A program made the translations under genes and the position numbers. Under the pieces are notes generated by a model that did not search any database, was not told the origin of the DNA, and worked only from the letters and a program-made list of their open reading frames with translations. Shown one piece after another: positions 1 through 48,333 of a stretch of DNA of 64,000 nucleotides. The stretch's first letter is position 1. Each line of letters begins with the position of its first letter. This stretch comes from Streptomyces chartreusis (GTDB taxonomy: Bacteria; Actinomycetota; Actinomycetes; Streptomycetales; Streptomycetaceae): NCBI RefSeq assembly GCF_008704715.1, contig NZ_CP023689.1, positions 9,734,001-9,798,000 of the forward strand, in the 5' to 3' direction.

Positions 1-363
1 TCCGATGCAGACGGTCCGATAGCCCCGCTGGGCGAGCCCGGACACGAACTCGGGGGTGTCGTAGACGAAGGTGCCGTCGGCAGTGGTCTCGCTGCCGGCG
101 AAGCTCGCCGCGAACAGCCGCGGATGCGGCCCCGGTTCGGCAGGCGTGGGCAGGAAGCCCGCGAAGATCGCCTGGTGCGAGGCGTAGGTGAAACTGCCGG
201 GTGCGTGACGCTTCTCCCAGCGGCCGCCGGGCAGATGGCGGGCCAGGTTCGGGATGCGCCCCTCGGCCGCCAACTCCACGGCCACGTCGTGGCGCAGTGT
301 GTCGAGGGTGACCAGGAGGATGTCGTGATGGCCGACGACCTCGTTCATGTCGGGCTCGGACAT
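1..363 (-). CDS. STM4013/SEN3800-family hydrolase (partial, C-terminus outside window)
   Basis: N-terminal 121 residues of an alkaline-phosphatase-superfamily metalloenzyme. The conserved strand ILLVTLDTLRHDVA carries the first metal-binding Asp, and a later segment, APGSFTYASHQAIFAG, holds the likely nucleophile (Thr or Ser). These features fit the STM4013/SEN3800 family, which is uncharacterised but always sits with STM4014 and STM4015 proteins and usually with two radical-SAM proteins (STM4011, STM4012). Those two would be expected beyond the left edge. I chose ATG at 363; upstream codons stay open, so the true start could be slightly earlier. It lies 52 bases downstream of the STM4014 stop and reads the same way, so it is probably co-transcribed. 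The function is unknown; a phosphoester or sulfoester hydrolase is a family-level inference. Confidence 0.85.
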   Translation of the reverse strand, partial: MSEPDMNEVVGHHDILLVTLDTLRHDVAVELAAEGRIPNLARHLPGGRWEKRHAPGSFTYASHQAIFAGFLPTPAEPGPHPRLFAASFAGSETTADGTFVYDTPEFVSGLAQRGYRTVCIG

Positions 364-415: not shown

Positions 416-1621
416 TCAGGCACGGGATGTTCCTGTTCTGTACGGTCCGCGCGGGGCCCTGCCGGAGGCAGCCGGGCGGGGCGGGTGGAGCTCACCGGGC
501 AGGGCCGGCTCGCGCAGGGCGGCCCTTACCTGCGCGGCGTACGTGTCCAGGCCTTCCGCGCCGCTGCCCGGCAGCCCGGTCAGCCGGGGCAGCAGGTCCC
601 CGAAGGCGTTGACCTCGCCGACGAAGGCCCTGCGCCAGCCAATCGCCGGCAGCAGGTCCACACCGACGCACAGGGTCCGCGGGAAGCAGGCCGCGGCCCG
701 CTCGCACACCTCCAGTACGTCGGACCAACGGCCGCCTGCCGCGCCGACGGCGTCCCGGGCGACGGCCAGGTCGCCGCGGCTGCCGCCCAGGTGCAGATTG
801 GTCAGCGGCGTGCGACTGGTGCGGACCACGGCGTGCGTGGCTCGCCCGCCCACCACGACCACGCGCAGGTCCGCGGCCCGGCCGTGCTGGGAGGCTTTCG
901 GAACCCAGCGCTCCAGGTGCAGCCCGTCGGGTGCGAGCGCGTCGACGATGGTCGCGATGTCCCGCTCGCTGTCGTAGCGACGCACCCGGAGGGAGTTGTG
1001 CAACGACCCGTCCGCCGAGAGTTCGACGGACGTGGTGGCCCTGATCCGGCCGCCGCCCGACTCGACGGCGAGGACGCCGGACGCCGACGACCCGTGCGCG
1101 GGCTTGACGAACAGCCGGGGCATCCGGTGCTCGCGCATCAGCGCCCGTACGTCGTCCCAGCCGCGCACCGGCGCCCCGCCCGGCCCCGAGGTCGGCGAGG
1201 CGGGTACCGGCACACCGGCCGCGTCGAGCACGCCGTGGCAGGCGCGTTTGTCGAACAGCACGGCGAGATCGTCGGGGGCGTCGAGCCGGATGCCGCCGCG
1301 CAGGGTGCGCAGCGCGGCGGTGAAGCGGGCGTACCAGCGGGCCGAGCCCTCGACCCGGGTGGGATCCGTCGCGCCGCGCAACAGCCGGTCGACCTCGGGA
1401 TTCTCGCCGGGGGAGTCGACCCGCACGATCTCGTCCGAGGCGAAGTCGGCTCCTCCTTCGAGCAGGACGTCGCTCCAGGCGACGATACGCGGGCCGGGCA
1501 GGCCGGCCGCGCGCACCGCGTCCGCGAAGAGCGACACCCGCCGGTTCTCGGGATTGCCGACCACGGCGAACCGCGACCCGGCGACACCGGAGGCCGGCGG
1601 GGCCACGGAGGGTGTGGTCAC
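416..1621 (-). CDS. STM4014-family protein, ATP-grasp-like
   Basis: A 401-residue protein recognised as the STM4014 family from its company and its sequence. FAVVGNPENRR near the N-terminus looks like a pre-ATP-grasp domain. FVKPAHGSSASGV supplies an ATP-binding Lys and Gly-rich loop, and GEVNAFGD near the C-terminus resembles the Mg-binding Glu/Asn of ATP-grasp ligases. An ATP-dependent carboxylate-amine or peptide-type ligation is therefore plausible (inference). The GTG start at 1621 overlaps the STM4015 stop by four bases (GTGA), implying translational coupling. The frame stays open far upstream, but that part is antisense-like filler inside STM4015. The substrate is unknown. Confidence 0.85.
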   Translation of the reverse strand: MTTPSVAPPASGVAGSRFAVVGNPENRRVSLFADAVRAAGLPGPRIVAWSDVLLEGGADFASDEIVRVDSPGENPEVDRLLRGATDPTRVEGSARWYARFTAALRTLRGGIRLDAPDDLAVLFDKRACHGVLDAAGVPVPASPTSGPGGAPVRGWDDVRALMREHRMPRLFVKPAHGSSASGVLAVESGGGRIRATTSVELSADGSLHNSLRVRRYDSERDIATIVDALAPDGLHLERWVPKASQHGRAADLRVVVVGGRATHAVVRTSRTPLTNLHLGGSRGDLAVARDAVGAAGGRWSDVLEVCERAAACFPRTLCVGVDLLPAIGWRRAFVGEVNAFGDLLPRLTGLPGSGAEGLDTYAAQVRAALREPALPGELHPPRPAASGRAPRGPYRTGTSRA

Positions 1622-2577
1622 TCGCCCACCGCGACGTAGCGCCAGACCGTGCCGTCGTCCTCCGTGTCCTCCTCCGCGTCGTCGCGGTCGAGGTCGACCT
1701 CCACGCCCGCGGTCGCCATGGTCTGGCGCACCCGCTCCTCGACCGCCGCGCTCAGGTAGTGATGGTGCAGGTCGAGCGTCTTCAGGTGCGTCAGGGGCTG
1801 ACCGCCCAGCAGCGCGGCGGCACCCTCGTCGGTCAGCACACCCATGGACAGGTCGAGCACCTCCAGGCGCTCCACCACGGGCGCGGACGCCACCGCCGCG
1901 GCCACCGCGTCCTGCATCTCGCTGTTGCGCAGCGCCAGATGACGCAGGCGCGGCAGCCGTGCGCCCGACAGGATCGGCTCCAGGTCGGAGGCCTCGCTGT
2001 CGCCGCCGTAGTCGGGCGTGCCGAGCCACAGGTCGAGGTGCTCCAGGGCGGGCAGGTCGCTCGCACCTATGCCGCGCACCACCTCGGCGGGCAGCCCGCC
2101 GGTCTCCACGACGAGCCTGCGCAGCCTGCTGTGGCTCAGTGCCGTGAACTCCAGCCCCGAGCCGCCCCGCACACCGAACTCCTCCAGCGCCCCGAACCCG
2201 GCGAGGAGCGGGGAGACGTCGCTCTGGTTGATCCAGGAGATCTCACACTCCTCCATCACCATGTCGCCGAGGAACAGCGCACGCAGCGCGGGGAAACGGT
2301 CCCGGGCGGCCACCAGCGCCTCGATGACGGGGGAGGGGTCGGAGTCGTACGCCTCCTGCCACGCCCCGACTATCAGCGCCCGCACCCGAGTGGTGTCGAC
2401 GGCGGCGCAGAACCGGGCGAACGCCTTCGGCCACTCCTCGTCGGCGTCGTACACGTCGCTGGTGATCCGCCAGGCGACGGTGTCCGGCTCGGGGAGGTCG
2501 TCCGTCGTCTCGTCCGGGCCCGGAAACGTGTGCGCGGGCAGCCCGTGGAGCTGGTCGAGGTGGTCACCGATGGTCAT
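1618..2577 (-). CDS. STM4015-family leucine-rich-repeat-like protein
   Basis: A 319-residue protein of the STM4015 family. From about residue 130 it shows successive leucine-rich motifs (LPALEHLDLWLG, LPRLRHLALRNSE, VERLEVLDLSMG, LTHLKTLDLHHHYLS) typical of LRR solenoids, followed by an acidic tail ending WRYVAVGE. It probably binds a protein or peptide partner rather than acting as an enzyme. ATG at 2577 is preceded by a purine-rich GGGAGAGG ribosome site. It is the first gene of the leftward unit; its promoter matches the PafBC/RecA-NDp DNA-damage type, see 2624-2646. The family has no known function. Confidence 0.85.
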   Translation of the reverse strand: MTIGDHLDQLHGLPAHTFPGPDETTDDLPEPDTVAWRITSDVYDADEEWPKAFARFCAAVDTTRVRALIVGAWQEAYDSDPSPVIEALVAARDRFPALRALFLGDMVMEECEISWINQSDVSPLLAGFGALEEFGVRGGSGLEFTALSHSRLRRLVVETGGLPAEVVRGIGASDLPALEHLDLWLGTPDYGGDSEASDLEPILSGARLPRLRHLALRNSEMQDAVAAAVASAPVVERLEVLDLSMGVLTDEGAAALLGGQPLTHLKTLDLHHHYLSAAVEERVRQTMATAGVEVDLDRDDAEEDTEDDGTVWRYVAVGE

Positions 2578-2623: not shown

Positions 2624-2646
2624 GTTCTACCAACAGCCACTGACAA
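2624..2646 (-). promoter_or_regulatory. Putative PafBC/RecA-NDp DNA-damage promoter for STM4015 unit
   Basis: On the minus strand the sequence reads TTGTCAGTG, then eight bases, then TAGAAC. The actinobacterial RecA-independent damage promoter consensus is tTGTCRGtg-N8-TAnnnT. The upstream element matches perfectly and the spacing is exact; the -10 has C in place of the last T. Transcription would start about 40 bases before the STM4015 ATG. It is the mirror image of the rightward promoter at 2676-2698; together they form an 11-base perfect inverted repeat (2637-2647 and 2675-2685). Confidence 0.6.
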
Positions 2647-2675
2647 CCGCGTGCGGCGGGGCGGGGTTCGGGGCG

Positions 2676-2698
2676 TTGTCAGTGGTGCCGCCTACGGT
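2676..2698 (+). promoter_or_regulatory. Putative PafBC/RecA-NDp DNA-damage promoter for DUF6745 unit
   Basis: TTGTCAGTG at 2676-2684, eight bases, then TACGGT at 2693-2698. This is a full match to the consensus tTGTCRGtg-N8-TAnnnT of PafBC-dependent, mitomycin-inducible actinobacterial promoters. The predicted transcript start falls at about 2705, immediately at an in-frame ATG (2706). The first gene could therefore be read either leaderless from 2706 or from the Shine-Dalgarno-preceded ATG at 2748. Confidence 0.72.
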
Positions 2699-2747: not shown

Positions 2748-3074
2748 ATGTACCGACAGGGAGACGTGCTGATCGTGCCGGTGACGGAGGAGGCCGTCCC
2801 GGCACACGTGGCACACGCCCCGAGGGAGCAGCGCGACGGGCGGGGCCGGCTCGTGCTGGCGCTGGGCGAGGTCACCGGCCACGCTCACGCGATCGTCGGT
2901 CCGGGCGAACTGATACGGGAGCCGGGGCCGTTCGGCCCGCTGCTGCTGCGTCTTCCGCAGGGCGGCCGGGTCGTGCACGAGGAACACGCGGCGATCGCGC
3001 TCCCCAAGGGCTGGTACCGGGTGATCCGGCAACGGGAGTACGTGCCCGGGTCCGTGCGGATCGTGGCGGACTGA
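2748..3074 (+). CDS. Small conserved hypothetical protein (MYRQGD type)
   Basis: A 108-residue protein beginning MYRQGDVLIVPV, with a central GRLVLALGEVTGHAHAI segment and a C-terminal YRVIRQREYVPG. It looks like a compact beta-rich single domain with no signal peptide or membrane segment. I do not recognise a function. ATG 2748 follows GGTGAGGGG at a good distance; an alternative in-frame ATG at 2706 coincides with the predicted start point of the damage-type promoter and could be used as a leaderless start. It is 82 bases upstream of the DUF6745 gene and reads the same way, so the two are probably one unit. Confidence 0.8.
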   Translation: MYRQGDVLIVPVTEEAVPAHVAHAPREQRDGRGRLVLALGEVTGHAHAIVGPGELIREPGPFGPLLLRLPQGGRVVHEEHAAIALPKGWYRVIRQREYVPGSVRIVAD

Positions 3075-3156: not shown

Positions 3157-4275
3157 ATGACCACGACGGACTTCGGATCCGCGACGGACATGGAGGGGAC
3201 CGAGGTGACGGGGACGGAGGCGGCGGGGACCGAGGTGACGGGGACCGAGGTGGAGAACATGGCCTCCGGCGAGTTGGGGCCGTGGCGTTACTGGGCCTCG
3301 GCGACCGGTCCCGCCGACCGCGCTGGCGCCGAGGACGCTGTCCGAAGGGCCTACCGGCTGGCGGGACTCGCCGAACCGGAGCGCGTGGTGTGGGTGGGTT
3401 CGCCGCGAGCGGCCGTCACATTGCTCAGGGAAGACCTGGTGGACCGCGGCGAGAGCGTACGGGACGCGGTACGCAGCGCACCCTGGGCACGGCAAAGACG
3501 TTCCCTGTACGCCGAGTTGGGCGCCGCGGGCTGGTCCGCGCACTGGGCGGCGACGGGCGGACGGCTGTGGGAGTCCACCCAGGCCCTGGTGGACCGGATC
3601 CGCTCCGGCGTCATCGAGGACCTCGCCGGCCGGGACACCGGCAAGGAAGCCGCCGAGATCCGGCTGCTCCTCCTGGACGCCGTGCTCGGACAGCACGACG
3701 CGCCGTGGCTCGCCGCGTTCCCCGCGGACGACGGTCCCCTCGACGCACTGACGGCGGTCTGCCGCAACGCCGGCTGGTGGTGGCCCTACGCCCGAGTGGC
3801 CGTCCTCTCCGAGCGGCCCGTGGCCCTGCACCGCGACGAGGCCGGCCGACTCGACCACGGCGACGGCCCGGCTCTGGCCTACCCCGACGGCTTCGCCCTG
3901 CACGCCTGGCGCGGCATGCCCGTCCCCGCGGACTTCCTCGCCGGACTGGCCACCCTCACGCCGGACCGCATCCGCGCCGAGGAGAACGCCGAACTCCGGC
4001 GAGTGATGCTGGAGTACTACGGCTACGACCGCTATCTGACCGACTCGGGAGCCCGCCCCCTCCACCAGGACGAGACAGGCACCCTGTGGCGAATCGACCT
4101 GGTCGACGACGAACCCGTGGTGATGGTGGAGGTCCTCAACTCCACCCCCGAACCGGACGGAACACGACGCACCTACTGGCTACGCGTACCGCCCTCGACG
4201 CGGACGGCGAGGGCGGGAGTTGCTTGGACCTTCGGGCTCGCGGCGGAGGCGTACGCGCCGGCGGCGGAGACGTGA
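3157..4275 (+). CDS. DUF6745 domain protein with repeat N-terminus
   Basis: A 372-residue protein from the ATG at 3157, chosen because GGTGGAGGGG lies just upstream; an ATG at 3100 would translate the upstream repeat. I assign it to DUF6745 from the overall pattern: WVGSPRAA, LLLLDAVLGQHDAPWLA, GWWWPYARVAVLSERPVALHRDEAGRLDHGDGPAL, YPDGFALHAWRGMPVP, and a C-terminal LRRVMLEYYGYDRYLTDSGA. No enzymatic motif is evident. Residues 14-33 are a (GTEVT)-type repeat encoded by four 15-base copies (3196-3255). It is probably co-transcribed with the small protein upstream from the damage-type promoter. Role unknown. Confidence 0.75.
   Translation: MTTTDFGSATDMEGTEVTGTEAAGTEVTGTEVENMASGELGPWRYWASATGPADRAGAEDAVRRAYRLAGLAEPERVVWVGSPRAAVTLLREDLVDRGESVRDAVRSAPWARQRRSLYAELGAAGWSAHWAATGGRLWESTQALVDRIRSGVIEDLAGRDTGKEAAEIRLLLLDAVLGQHDAPWLAAFPADDGPLDALTAVCRNAGWWWPYARVAVLSERPVALHRDEAGRLDHGDGPALAYPDGFALHAWRGMPVPADFLAGLATLTPDRIRAEENAELRRVMLEYYGYDRYLTDSGARPLHQDETGTLWRIDLVDDEPVVMVEVLNSTPEPDGTRRTYWLRVPPSTRTARAGVAWTFGLAAEAYAPAAET
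3196..3255 (+). repeat. 15-bp in-frame tandem repeat encoding GTEVT
   Basis: Four contiguous 15-base units (GGGACCGAGGTGACG, GGGACGGAGGCGGCG, GGGACCGAGGTGACG, GGGACCGAGGTGGAG) encode GTEVT-GTEAA-GTEVT-GTEVE. The period is a multiple of three, so copy-number change would alter N-terminal length without shifting frame. Confidence 0.85.
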
Positions 4276-4502
4276 GCGGGCCGCGGACCCTGCCGGCCCC
4301 GTGACGAACCGGTGTTCAGGACGTGGTGCCGGCCAAGCCACCTCCACCGGTGGCAATGCCGCCGCTCGGCCTGGGAGTGGCGAAGGGAGGCGTGTCCTGA
4401 GCGAGGTGGCCGCCGCCGAACGGGCGAGTCGCTCGGGCACGGCGAAGCACTGTCATCAGTGACGGAGACCGATCTTTGGCCGGTGAGGGCGACCGTCGGT
4501 GC

Positions 4503-46813: not shown

Positions 46814-48333
46814 AGGACGAACCTACGGGATGCCACTGACAGCACCGTGGGAGCCAGTGAGGGGTTGGAGGCTGCCGCCTCCGCCACCCGCTCGTTGTTG
46901 TCGGTGAGGAGTTCCGCGATGACTGTCGGGGGCAGGTTCGGGTGGGTGGCGGCCAGGGGTCGGGCCCGCTCGTCGGTCAGGCAAGCCAGCAGCGCGGGTG
47001 CCGGGGTGTGCGGGTGCCGGGCGATTTCGCGGAAGGCCTTCCGCACCGGAGGCTGGTGCCGGGTCAGTTCCTCCAGCAGGGCGGGCGAGGCATCCGGGTT
47101 GGCCGCCGCTTTGGCCACCACCTGGACTCCGTGGCGGGCGACCATGGCGCGCAGGTGGGCGTCGGAGAGGCCCGGGTGGGGCGCGACGGACTTGGCCACC
47201 TTGGCGTCGGGGTCGGCGGCCAGCGCGTCGCGGATCGCGGCTGGCAGGTCACGCCGTTGCGCCACGAGCATCCGTACGGCCGGATCGGGTGATACGGCCA
47301 GCCGCGCCGTCTCATCCGGGGAGGCGGCCGCGATCCGCGGCAGCAGGGTTGAACCGATCCTGGTCGCTCGCGCCAGGTCGGCCAGCACGTCGAGCGGCAC
47401 GTTCGGATTGTGGGCGAGTCGGCGCTGCACGTCGTGGCCGCGGTCGGCGGCCAGCGTACGGATGAGGGTGTCGTCGATCGCTGGATTCTCGGCGAGATCG
47501 GCCCGGACCCCGGGGATGGGGTCCTTGGCGAGTCGTGCCCCCACGCTCGGCGGCAGATCCGGTCGGATTGCGAGGGCGCTGCGCAGCAGCATGGAGGGGT
47601 GATCGGCGAAGCGGACGGCGGCGTCGATCGGGGTGGCAAGGTTGAGCAGCGCCATGCGCTGGATCTCGTGCACGGTCGACTGGTGAGAACCGTCGCAGGC
47701 GGCGCCCGCGAGTAGATCGCACTCAGGCCGTTGGCAGGACGACTCGTGCACGAACGGCGTTTCCTCGCGGTCGCAGACCAGGCACCGCTGCGCCGGTGGG
47801 ATCCCTTCCCCGGTGATCAGCGTCTCCAGCACAGTCGGCGGCGTCGACTCGTTGGCCGCCGCCGAGCGGCGTACCTCTGCGTGGGGGTGGCGTGCGAGCC
47901 TGGCGGCCGTGTCGGAGGTGGTCCACAGTGCGAGTTCCGCGACCACCTGGATGTCCGGGTCGGCGGCGAGTGTCCGTATGACGTCGGGTGGTAGGTCGGG
48001 GCAGGCGGCGAGTTTCTCGCGGACCCGGGTGGCTGGGTGGGTTGCCAGGAAAGGAGTCCACTCCTGGCGGCCGGCTCCTTCGTCGAGGAGGGCGAGCGCG
48101 GCGTAGGGCTGGGCGGCGGGATCGATGTCGTCCGCGGTCAGCCTGCCCTCGTATGCCAGTTGGACGGCGATCTCGTCGCCGCGAGCGGCCAGCGTGGTCA
48201 GCTGCGCGGGAGTGAGGTCCGTGCGTGCGGCGAGCTCGCTGCTGAGGTCGGTGTCGGCGATGGTGATGAGCCGGTCGATCAGTTCGGGTGGCAGGGACGG
48301 GTTGGCGGCGAGTCCGTGCAGGACGTGGTTCAC
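46810..48333 (-). CDS. Leucine-rich-repeat-variant (LRV) protein with central Cys cluster
   Basis: A 507-residue alpha-solenoid of about 24-residue repeats: LAANPSLPPELIDRLI, ARTDLTPAQLTTLAARGD, LAENPAIDDTLIRTLAADRGHDVQRRLAHNPNVPLDVLADLA and many more. This is the LRV repeat pattern. In the middle, Cys184, Cys187, Cys200, Cys205 and Cys213 form a compact cluster; the Azotobacter LRV protein carries an iron-sulfur cluster, so a metal or Fe-S site is plausible. GTG 48333 is preferred: AGGA lies seven bases upstream. It is coupled to the hypothetical gene downstream. Confidence 0.8.
   Translation of the reverse strand: MNHVLHGLAANPSLPPELIDRLITIADTDLSSELAARTDLTPAQLTTLAARGDEIAVQLAYEGRLTADDIDPAAQPYAALALLDEGAGRQEWTPFLATHPATRVREKLAACPDLPPDVIRTLAADPDIQVVAELALWTTSDTAARLARHPHAEVRRSAAANESTPPTVLETLITGEGIPPAQRCLVCDREETPFVHESSCQRPECDLLAGAACDGSHQSTVHEIQRMALLNLATPIDAAVRFADHPSMLLRSALAIRPDLPPSVGARLAKDPIPGVRADLAENPAIDDTLIRTLAADRGHDVQRRLAHNPNVPLDVLADLARATRIGSTLLPRIAAASPDETARLAVSPDPAVRMLVAQRRDLPAAIRDALAADPDAKVAKSVAPHPGLSDAHLRAMVARHGVQVVAKAAANPDASPALLEELTRHQPPVRKAFREIARHPHTPAPALLACLTDERARPLAATHPNLPPTVIAELLTDNNERVAEAAASNPSLAPTVLSVASRRFVL

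Follow-up and report, generated by a model that had tools for sequence, protein, structure and literature searches.

Back-to-back RecA-NDp-type promoters between the STM4015 and SMALL-DUF6745 genes of Streptomyces chartreusis: a probable LexA-independent DNA-damage control region

Do genes known as hypothetical equivalogs or domains of unknown function belong to the DNA-damage response? The question is raised by a 75-bp region of the 9.9 Mb chromosome of a Streptomyces, S. chartreusis. In the window, that is, the whole 64,000-nucleotide stretch that was analysed (chromosome positions 9734001-9798000), divergent genes start at 2577 and at 2706 or 2748, and between them two RecA-NDp-type motifs stand back to back. 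The genes of the locus are the following, in window coordinates:

1-363, minus strand: STM4013 family sulfatase/phosphodiesterase-like hydrolase (Pfam), cut by the window edge
416-1621, minus strand: STM4014 family ATP-grasp protein (NF038074, E=7.5e-135; 464-1621 scanned, the frame extending to 416)
1618-2577, minus strand: STM4015 family protein with leucine-rich repeats, opening the left operon, C-terminus RYVAVGE (NF038076, E=2.4e-124)
Outside the window, after STM4013, left operon: STM4012, radical SAM protein with HemN_C
Outside the window, after STM4012, left operon: STM4011, radical SAM protein
2748-3074, plus strand: SMALL, a conserved 108-aa protein (MYRQGDVL...GEVTGHAHA...VHEEH...RQREY; 39 orthologues extracted)
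3157-4275, plus strand: DUF6745 protein (PF20530, E=3.3e-117)

The NCBIfam scores of STM4015 (414.1 bits against a cut-off of 275) and STM4014 (449.8 bits against 175) are well above threshold. The first-pass annotation had listed STM4013-4015 as the leftward genes; these are present, but the set is in fact complete, STM4015-4014-4013-4012-4011, with the last two just beyond the window, so that all five members of the STM4011-STM4015 series of NCBIfam hypothetical equivalogs occur here in order. SMALL has no Pfam or NCBIfam family and matches phrog_27831 (E=7e-14). Fold comparison with solved structures returned nothing usable for SMALL (pLDDT 79.6) or DUF6745 (pLDDT 75.3), the best Foldseek E-values being 0.57 and 1.5, respectively, with VIA-align Z at most 2.8 and some cupins among the SMALL rows; a sequence search gave no solved relative below E 0.24. 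Among the PADLOC models compared with the cluster, a weak partial match of STM4012 to PDC-M51A (E=5e-7) was the only one obtained.

The intergenic features are these:

2624-2646, minus strand: leftward RecA-NDp variant promoter, TTGTCAGTG-N4-TTGG-TAGAAC, one consensus mismatch
2646-2638, minus strand: leftward -26 element, part of the same promoter
2633-2630, minus strand: leftward extended -10 TTGG, directly before TAGAAC
2629-2624, minus strand: leftward -10 TAGAAC, followed by an invariant T at 2623
2637-2685, no strand: inverted repeat formed from both -26 elements, arms 2637-2647 (CCACTGACAAC) and 2675-2685 (GTTGTCAGTGG)
2676-2698, plus strand: rightward RecA-NDp promoter, TTGTCAGTG-N8-TACGGT, exact match to TTGTCAGTG-N8-TAnnnT
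2676-2684, plus strand: rightward -26 element, part of TTGTCAGTG-N8-TACGGT
2693-2698, plus strand: rightward -10 TACGGT, predicted transcript start near 2706

The motif followed after eight bases by a -10, which had been described for both directions, is borne out with no mismatch on the plus strand and one on the minus strand, as is the perfect inverted repeat, whose 11-nt arms are 100% complementary. When up to two mismatches are allowed, the window contains five matches to the motif against 0.78 expected, a number reached by no shuffle. An exact SOS box (GAACN4GTTC) does not occur between the two divergent genes, the nearest exact match, in a search of exact boxes only, lying at 4306.

This promoter type was defined on the recA gene of S. 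rimosus as TTGTCAGTGGC-N6-TAGggT (PMC2375139), and SCO6735, which also has a RecA-NDp promoter upstream, is UV-inducible (PMC5087735); motif scans of S. coelicolor found the type at 67 genes (among PMC2375139, PMC5087735 and PMC8223512). In mycobacteria, RecA-NDp-like promoters are read by PafBC, whose motif resembles RecA-NDp (PMC8223512). The S. chartreusis sites share with the actinobacterial RecA-NDp promoters (S. rimosus and S. coelicolor recA, SCO6735, M. tuberculosis repair genes) the same TTGTCAGTG-N8-TAnnnT, the frequent 30-nt spacing to the start codon and the association with repair genes; they differ in forming a divergent pair over an uncharacterised cluster, in the extended -10 of a left copy that lacks the T at -7, and in that roughly one in two orthologous right promoters has TTGTCAGACCC in place of TTGTCAGTG.

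The 75-bp region is probably a bidirectional LexA-independent damage control region, with a RecA-NDp promoter on each side that would most likely be activated by PafBC. Each promoter would be read by the primary sigma factor together with an activator, most likely PafBC, which would recognise TGTCRGTG at about -26 and be switched on by ssDNA. The rightward transcript would begin some 7 nt beyond TACGGT and express SMALL-DUF6745, while the leftward promoter, with its conserved extended -10 TTGG-TAGAAC and no T at -7, would express STM4015-4014-4013-4012-4011; the products would most likely act in one pathway.

The right site agrees exactly with the tTGTCRgtg-N8-TAnnnT rule, and an ATG at 2706 lies at +30 from the motif start, the same leaderless spacing as at other sites in the genome. 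A leaderless start of SMALL at this in-frame ATG was considered and rejected; the frame leading from 2706 to MYRQGDVL is not conserved in relatives, and the start at 2748 is therefore preferred. Absence of the motif from orthologous loci had been set beforehand as grounds for refuting the damage link; what was found is its presence in 57 of the 58 Streptomyces loci in which STM4015 is divergent from SMALL (9 or 10 of 10 scored positions) and, as nTGTCRG-N10-TAnnnT, upstream of SMALL-DUF6745 in 10/10 loci of non-Streptomyces families. Similarly, 57 of 59 loci in named genomes agree with the right promoter at each of the nine scored positions; permuted patterns do so in 0.78 of 59 on average (one row of that locus table, with an impossible offset, is to be disregarded). 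Outside Streptomyces, the six fully read loci have SMALL-DUF6745 arranged tail-to-tail with STM4011 and not head-to-head with STM4015, so that the pair has unrelated DNA upstream of it there. A chance juxtaposition of two TTGTCAGTG words, which as nine-base words are not in themselves rare in a large genome, is exceedingly improbable, since the arrangement persists across dozens of species despite divergence of the spacer, and persists independently in other families; this orthologue conservation refutes it.

The orthologous right promoters in Streptomyces carry TTGTCAGTG in about half of the cases and TTGTCAGACCC in the other half. The form TTGTCAGACCC-N6-TAnnnT is also present at ligA in the S. 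chartreusis genome and, in several species, at a second conserved gene family; one orthologous gene pair has the TG form in one species and the AC form in the other. The occurrence at ligA and this exchange within a single orthologous pair are the reasons for which TTGTCAGACCC is counted, from sequence, as a real variant of the RecA-NDp promoter.

The left site departs from the tTGTCRgtg-N8-TAnnnT rule, its last base being C and not T. The mismatch noted in the first-pass annotation is thus real, but the site is not a weak hit: it is a conserved extended -10 variant, and it is still held to be RecA-NDp-like because the spacing, the extended -10 and the conservation are all found. Across the 58 divergent loci the element reads nTGTCRGTG-N4-TTGRTAnAnCT, in which TTG, TA and the last T never vary (it may also be written TGTCRGTG-N5-TGRTAGAAC), and other families have TGTCGG..-TGRTAGGAC, ending in CTGRTAGGAC at the -10. 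It is kept upstream of STM4015 in loci without SMALL, where the first base before TGTCRGTG varies, and therefore belongs to the STM4015 operon itself. A TG directly before nTA constitutes an extended -10, which can stand in for a missing T at -7. Within the genome, sites with a last base other than T number only five, the left site among them (5/42 TTGTCAGTG-N8-TA sites lack the T); the final T is thus strongly selected and the left -10 truly atypical. The dnaB gene is also preceded by TTGTCAGTG-N8-TAGAAC (chromosome 4990727-4990749), with the same atypical hexamer as the left promoter.

These peculiarities bear on a different reading, in which the right promoter alone belongs to the RecA-NDp class and the left sequence, TTGGTAGAACT, is bound by a different regulator or sigma factor, TGTCRGTG then placing the STM401x genes under damage control only in part or not at all. 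The last -10 base of the left element is never T, its TTG, TA and T24 do not vary, and the 23-nt left composite, with 37 occurrences in 101 Streptomyces genomes (reversed controls, 0), is nearly always found just upstream of STM4015, which leaves room for binding by a further regulator specific to the locus. This reading is nevertheless rather unlikely: TGTCRGTG keeps the exact RecA-NDp spacing of 8 nt to TA, also in loci without the right genes; the TG at -15/-14 is that of an ordinary extended -10 and persists as CTGRTAGGAC in other families; and dnaB, too, carries TTGTCAGTG-N8-TAGAAC.

Both promoters being taken as RecA-NDp-type, the genomic distribution of the motif points to the regulon to which they would belong. 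The exact motif has 37 copies in the 9.9 Mb genome and none when read backwards, and the genes downstream include recA, uvrA, uvrB, radA, dnaX, thyX and ogt, as well as ung (uracil-DNA glycosylase), a DinG/YoaA-type helicase and a rarA/MgsA-type ATPase (all profile-checked). In many cases the distance between the start of the motif and the start codon is exactly 30 nt, which is leaderless spacing. The comparative evidence, namely the orthologue motifs, the repair-gene sites and the Deinococcus operator described below, thus supports the placement of the locus in the LexA-independent damage response that had been suggested, and damage activation of both operons would follow from it.

With regard to the activator, tandem WYL genes corresponding to pafB-pafC are located at chromosome positions 7902005 and 7902987, and a helicase gene that carries the motif follows some 3 kb downstream. 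The designation of PafBC as the regulator is upheld to the extent that pafBC is present and the motif fits; for Streptomyces, homology and motif make it the putative regulator. A 2022 study reported that its initial search detected no conservation of the M. smegmatis PafBC motif in S. venezuelae (PMC9380542), and this counts against PafBC control in Streptomyces; as to motif conservation, the 37 genomic sites argue otherwise for the present species. The promoters may also be damage-inducible through another WYL regulator or some other factor, given that the genome has nine WYL matches and that the evidence on PafBC does not come from Streptomyces. We regard this as quite improbable, since mycobacterial PafBC recognises the motif and its orthologues are found here at a tandem locus. 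PafBC thus remains the favoured candidate. The same motif defines the mycobacterial PafBC regulon, but STM401x and DUF6745 are not among the members mentioned in the cited literature.

Two further sites of this type were observed. A second RecA-NDp-like site in the window, CTGTCAGTGGCATCCCGTAGGTT (46820-46842, minus strand), has an ATG 29 nt from its start and opens a DUF7691 gene (PF24740, E=2e-65), to which another motif-bearing gene in the genome is similar by eye. Another back-to-back TTGTCAGTG pair, which encloses a CAGGTCAG element, is present in about 150 of 296 Streptomyces genomes, and one of its sides drives a gene resembling that of a SWIM-type zinc-finger protein.

The same gene pair carries a second, unrelated damage operator in Deinococcus. 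An RDRM, the operator of the LexA-independent damage repressor DdrO (PMC8533742), lies close upstream of the SMALL-DUF6745 start codon in 4/4 Deinococcus species (TTATGTTATAGACGTAA, TTACGCTAATTACGTAA, TTATGTTGCTAACATAA and TTATGCTATTTACGTAA). Scored with a matrix built from the sites listed in PMC1978522, the four reach 25.0-27.0 bits, level with the best known sites, the next best 17-mer of each locus scoring at most 10.7; in the three Deinococcus clusters, none was found upstream of STM4015 itself. The likeness to the Deinococcus RDR regulon consists in this strong operator at the orthologues, while its regulator and operator are unrelated to RecA-NDp, so that the same association was reached independently in another phylum. 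That two unrelated damage regulators should stand before one gene pair would be difficult to account for if the pair had no role in the damage response. In Deinococcus ficus the pair occurs without STM4011-4015 nearby, which suggests SMALL-DUF6745 as the core damage-regulated unit. The RDRM-bearing pair of this species is followed instead by genes for a VWA-domain protein, a glutathionylspermidine-synthase-like protein and an ion transporter.

STM4015 was present in 137 of 296 sampled Streptomyces genomes and, in a class-wide sample, in 42 of 297, including all 21 genomes with a full-length SMALL. SMALL, DUF6745 and STM4011-4015 adjoin one another in Actinomycetota, Deinococcus and Methylobacterium. 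A search of the Methylobacterium and Skermanella loci for the LexA box of Alphaproteobacteria (GTTCN7GTTC) gave no match. The STM4015 matches include Salmonella plasmid records.

The STM4015 proteins, encoded in one to five tandem copies per cluster, have a variable acidic linker followed by a short conserved tail, [RY][YF]xAVxE, whose C-terminal Glu is invariant in 78/78 distinct copies and recurs in Deinococcus, Methylobacterium, Paenibacillus, Bacteroides and Calothrix, five genera belonging to other phyla. A carrier with a conserved tail thus adjoins ATP-grasp and radical SAM genes, as in scaffold or RiPP-like pathways. PQQ, mycofactocin and pearlin-type pathways use a scaffold or precursor peptide with ATP-grasp or radical SAM enzymes, and Pup ends in a C-terminal Glu; the likeness lies in the short conserved C-terminal carrier tail, the enzyme partners and the tandem carriers, the difference in that the carrier here is a leucine-rich-repeat protein of about 300 aa. 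From the invariant Glu tail and the neighbouring ATP-grasp and radical SAM genes it is suggested, with low confidence, that STM4015 may be a scaffold whose RYVAVGE tail is acted on by these enzymes. It is equally tentative that SMALL, DUF6745 and STM4011-4015 might form an undescribed damage-induced pathway common to Actinomycetota, Deinococcota and Alphaproteobacteria. On this view the Glu-ended tails of leucine-rich scaffold proteins would be converted by radical SAM and ATP-grasp enzymes into a protein modification or small molecule that aids survival of damage.

The promoter class is known, and its link to this cluster appears to be unreported, although supplementary lists of the S. coelicolor scans may name its genes; in a literature search, DUF6745 was not mentioned and the STM401x genes were named only in two unrelated Salmonella surveys. 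To our knowledge, the proposed damage link of STM4011-4015 and their tie to SMALL-DUF6745 are new, and so are the variant form of the left promoter, the connection to damage across phyla and the putative scaffold with its terminal glutamate. Two promoter variants, with an extended -10 and with TTGTCAGACCC, are defined, both of which a plain motif search would miss, and the phyla in which the two regulators act diverged long ago. Families so far catalogued as hypothetical equivalogs or domains of unknown function gain a testable role, and the LexA-independent regulon of Streptomyces may be large, contrary to the published remark on S. venezuelae.
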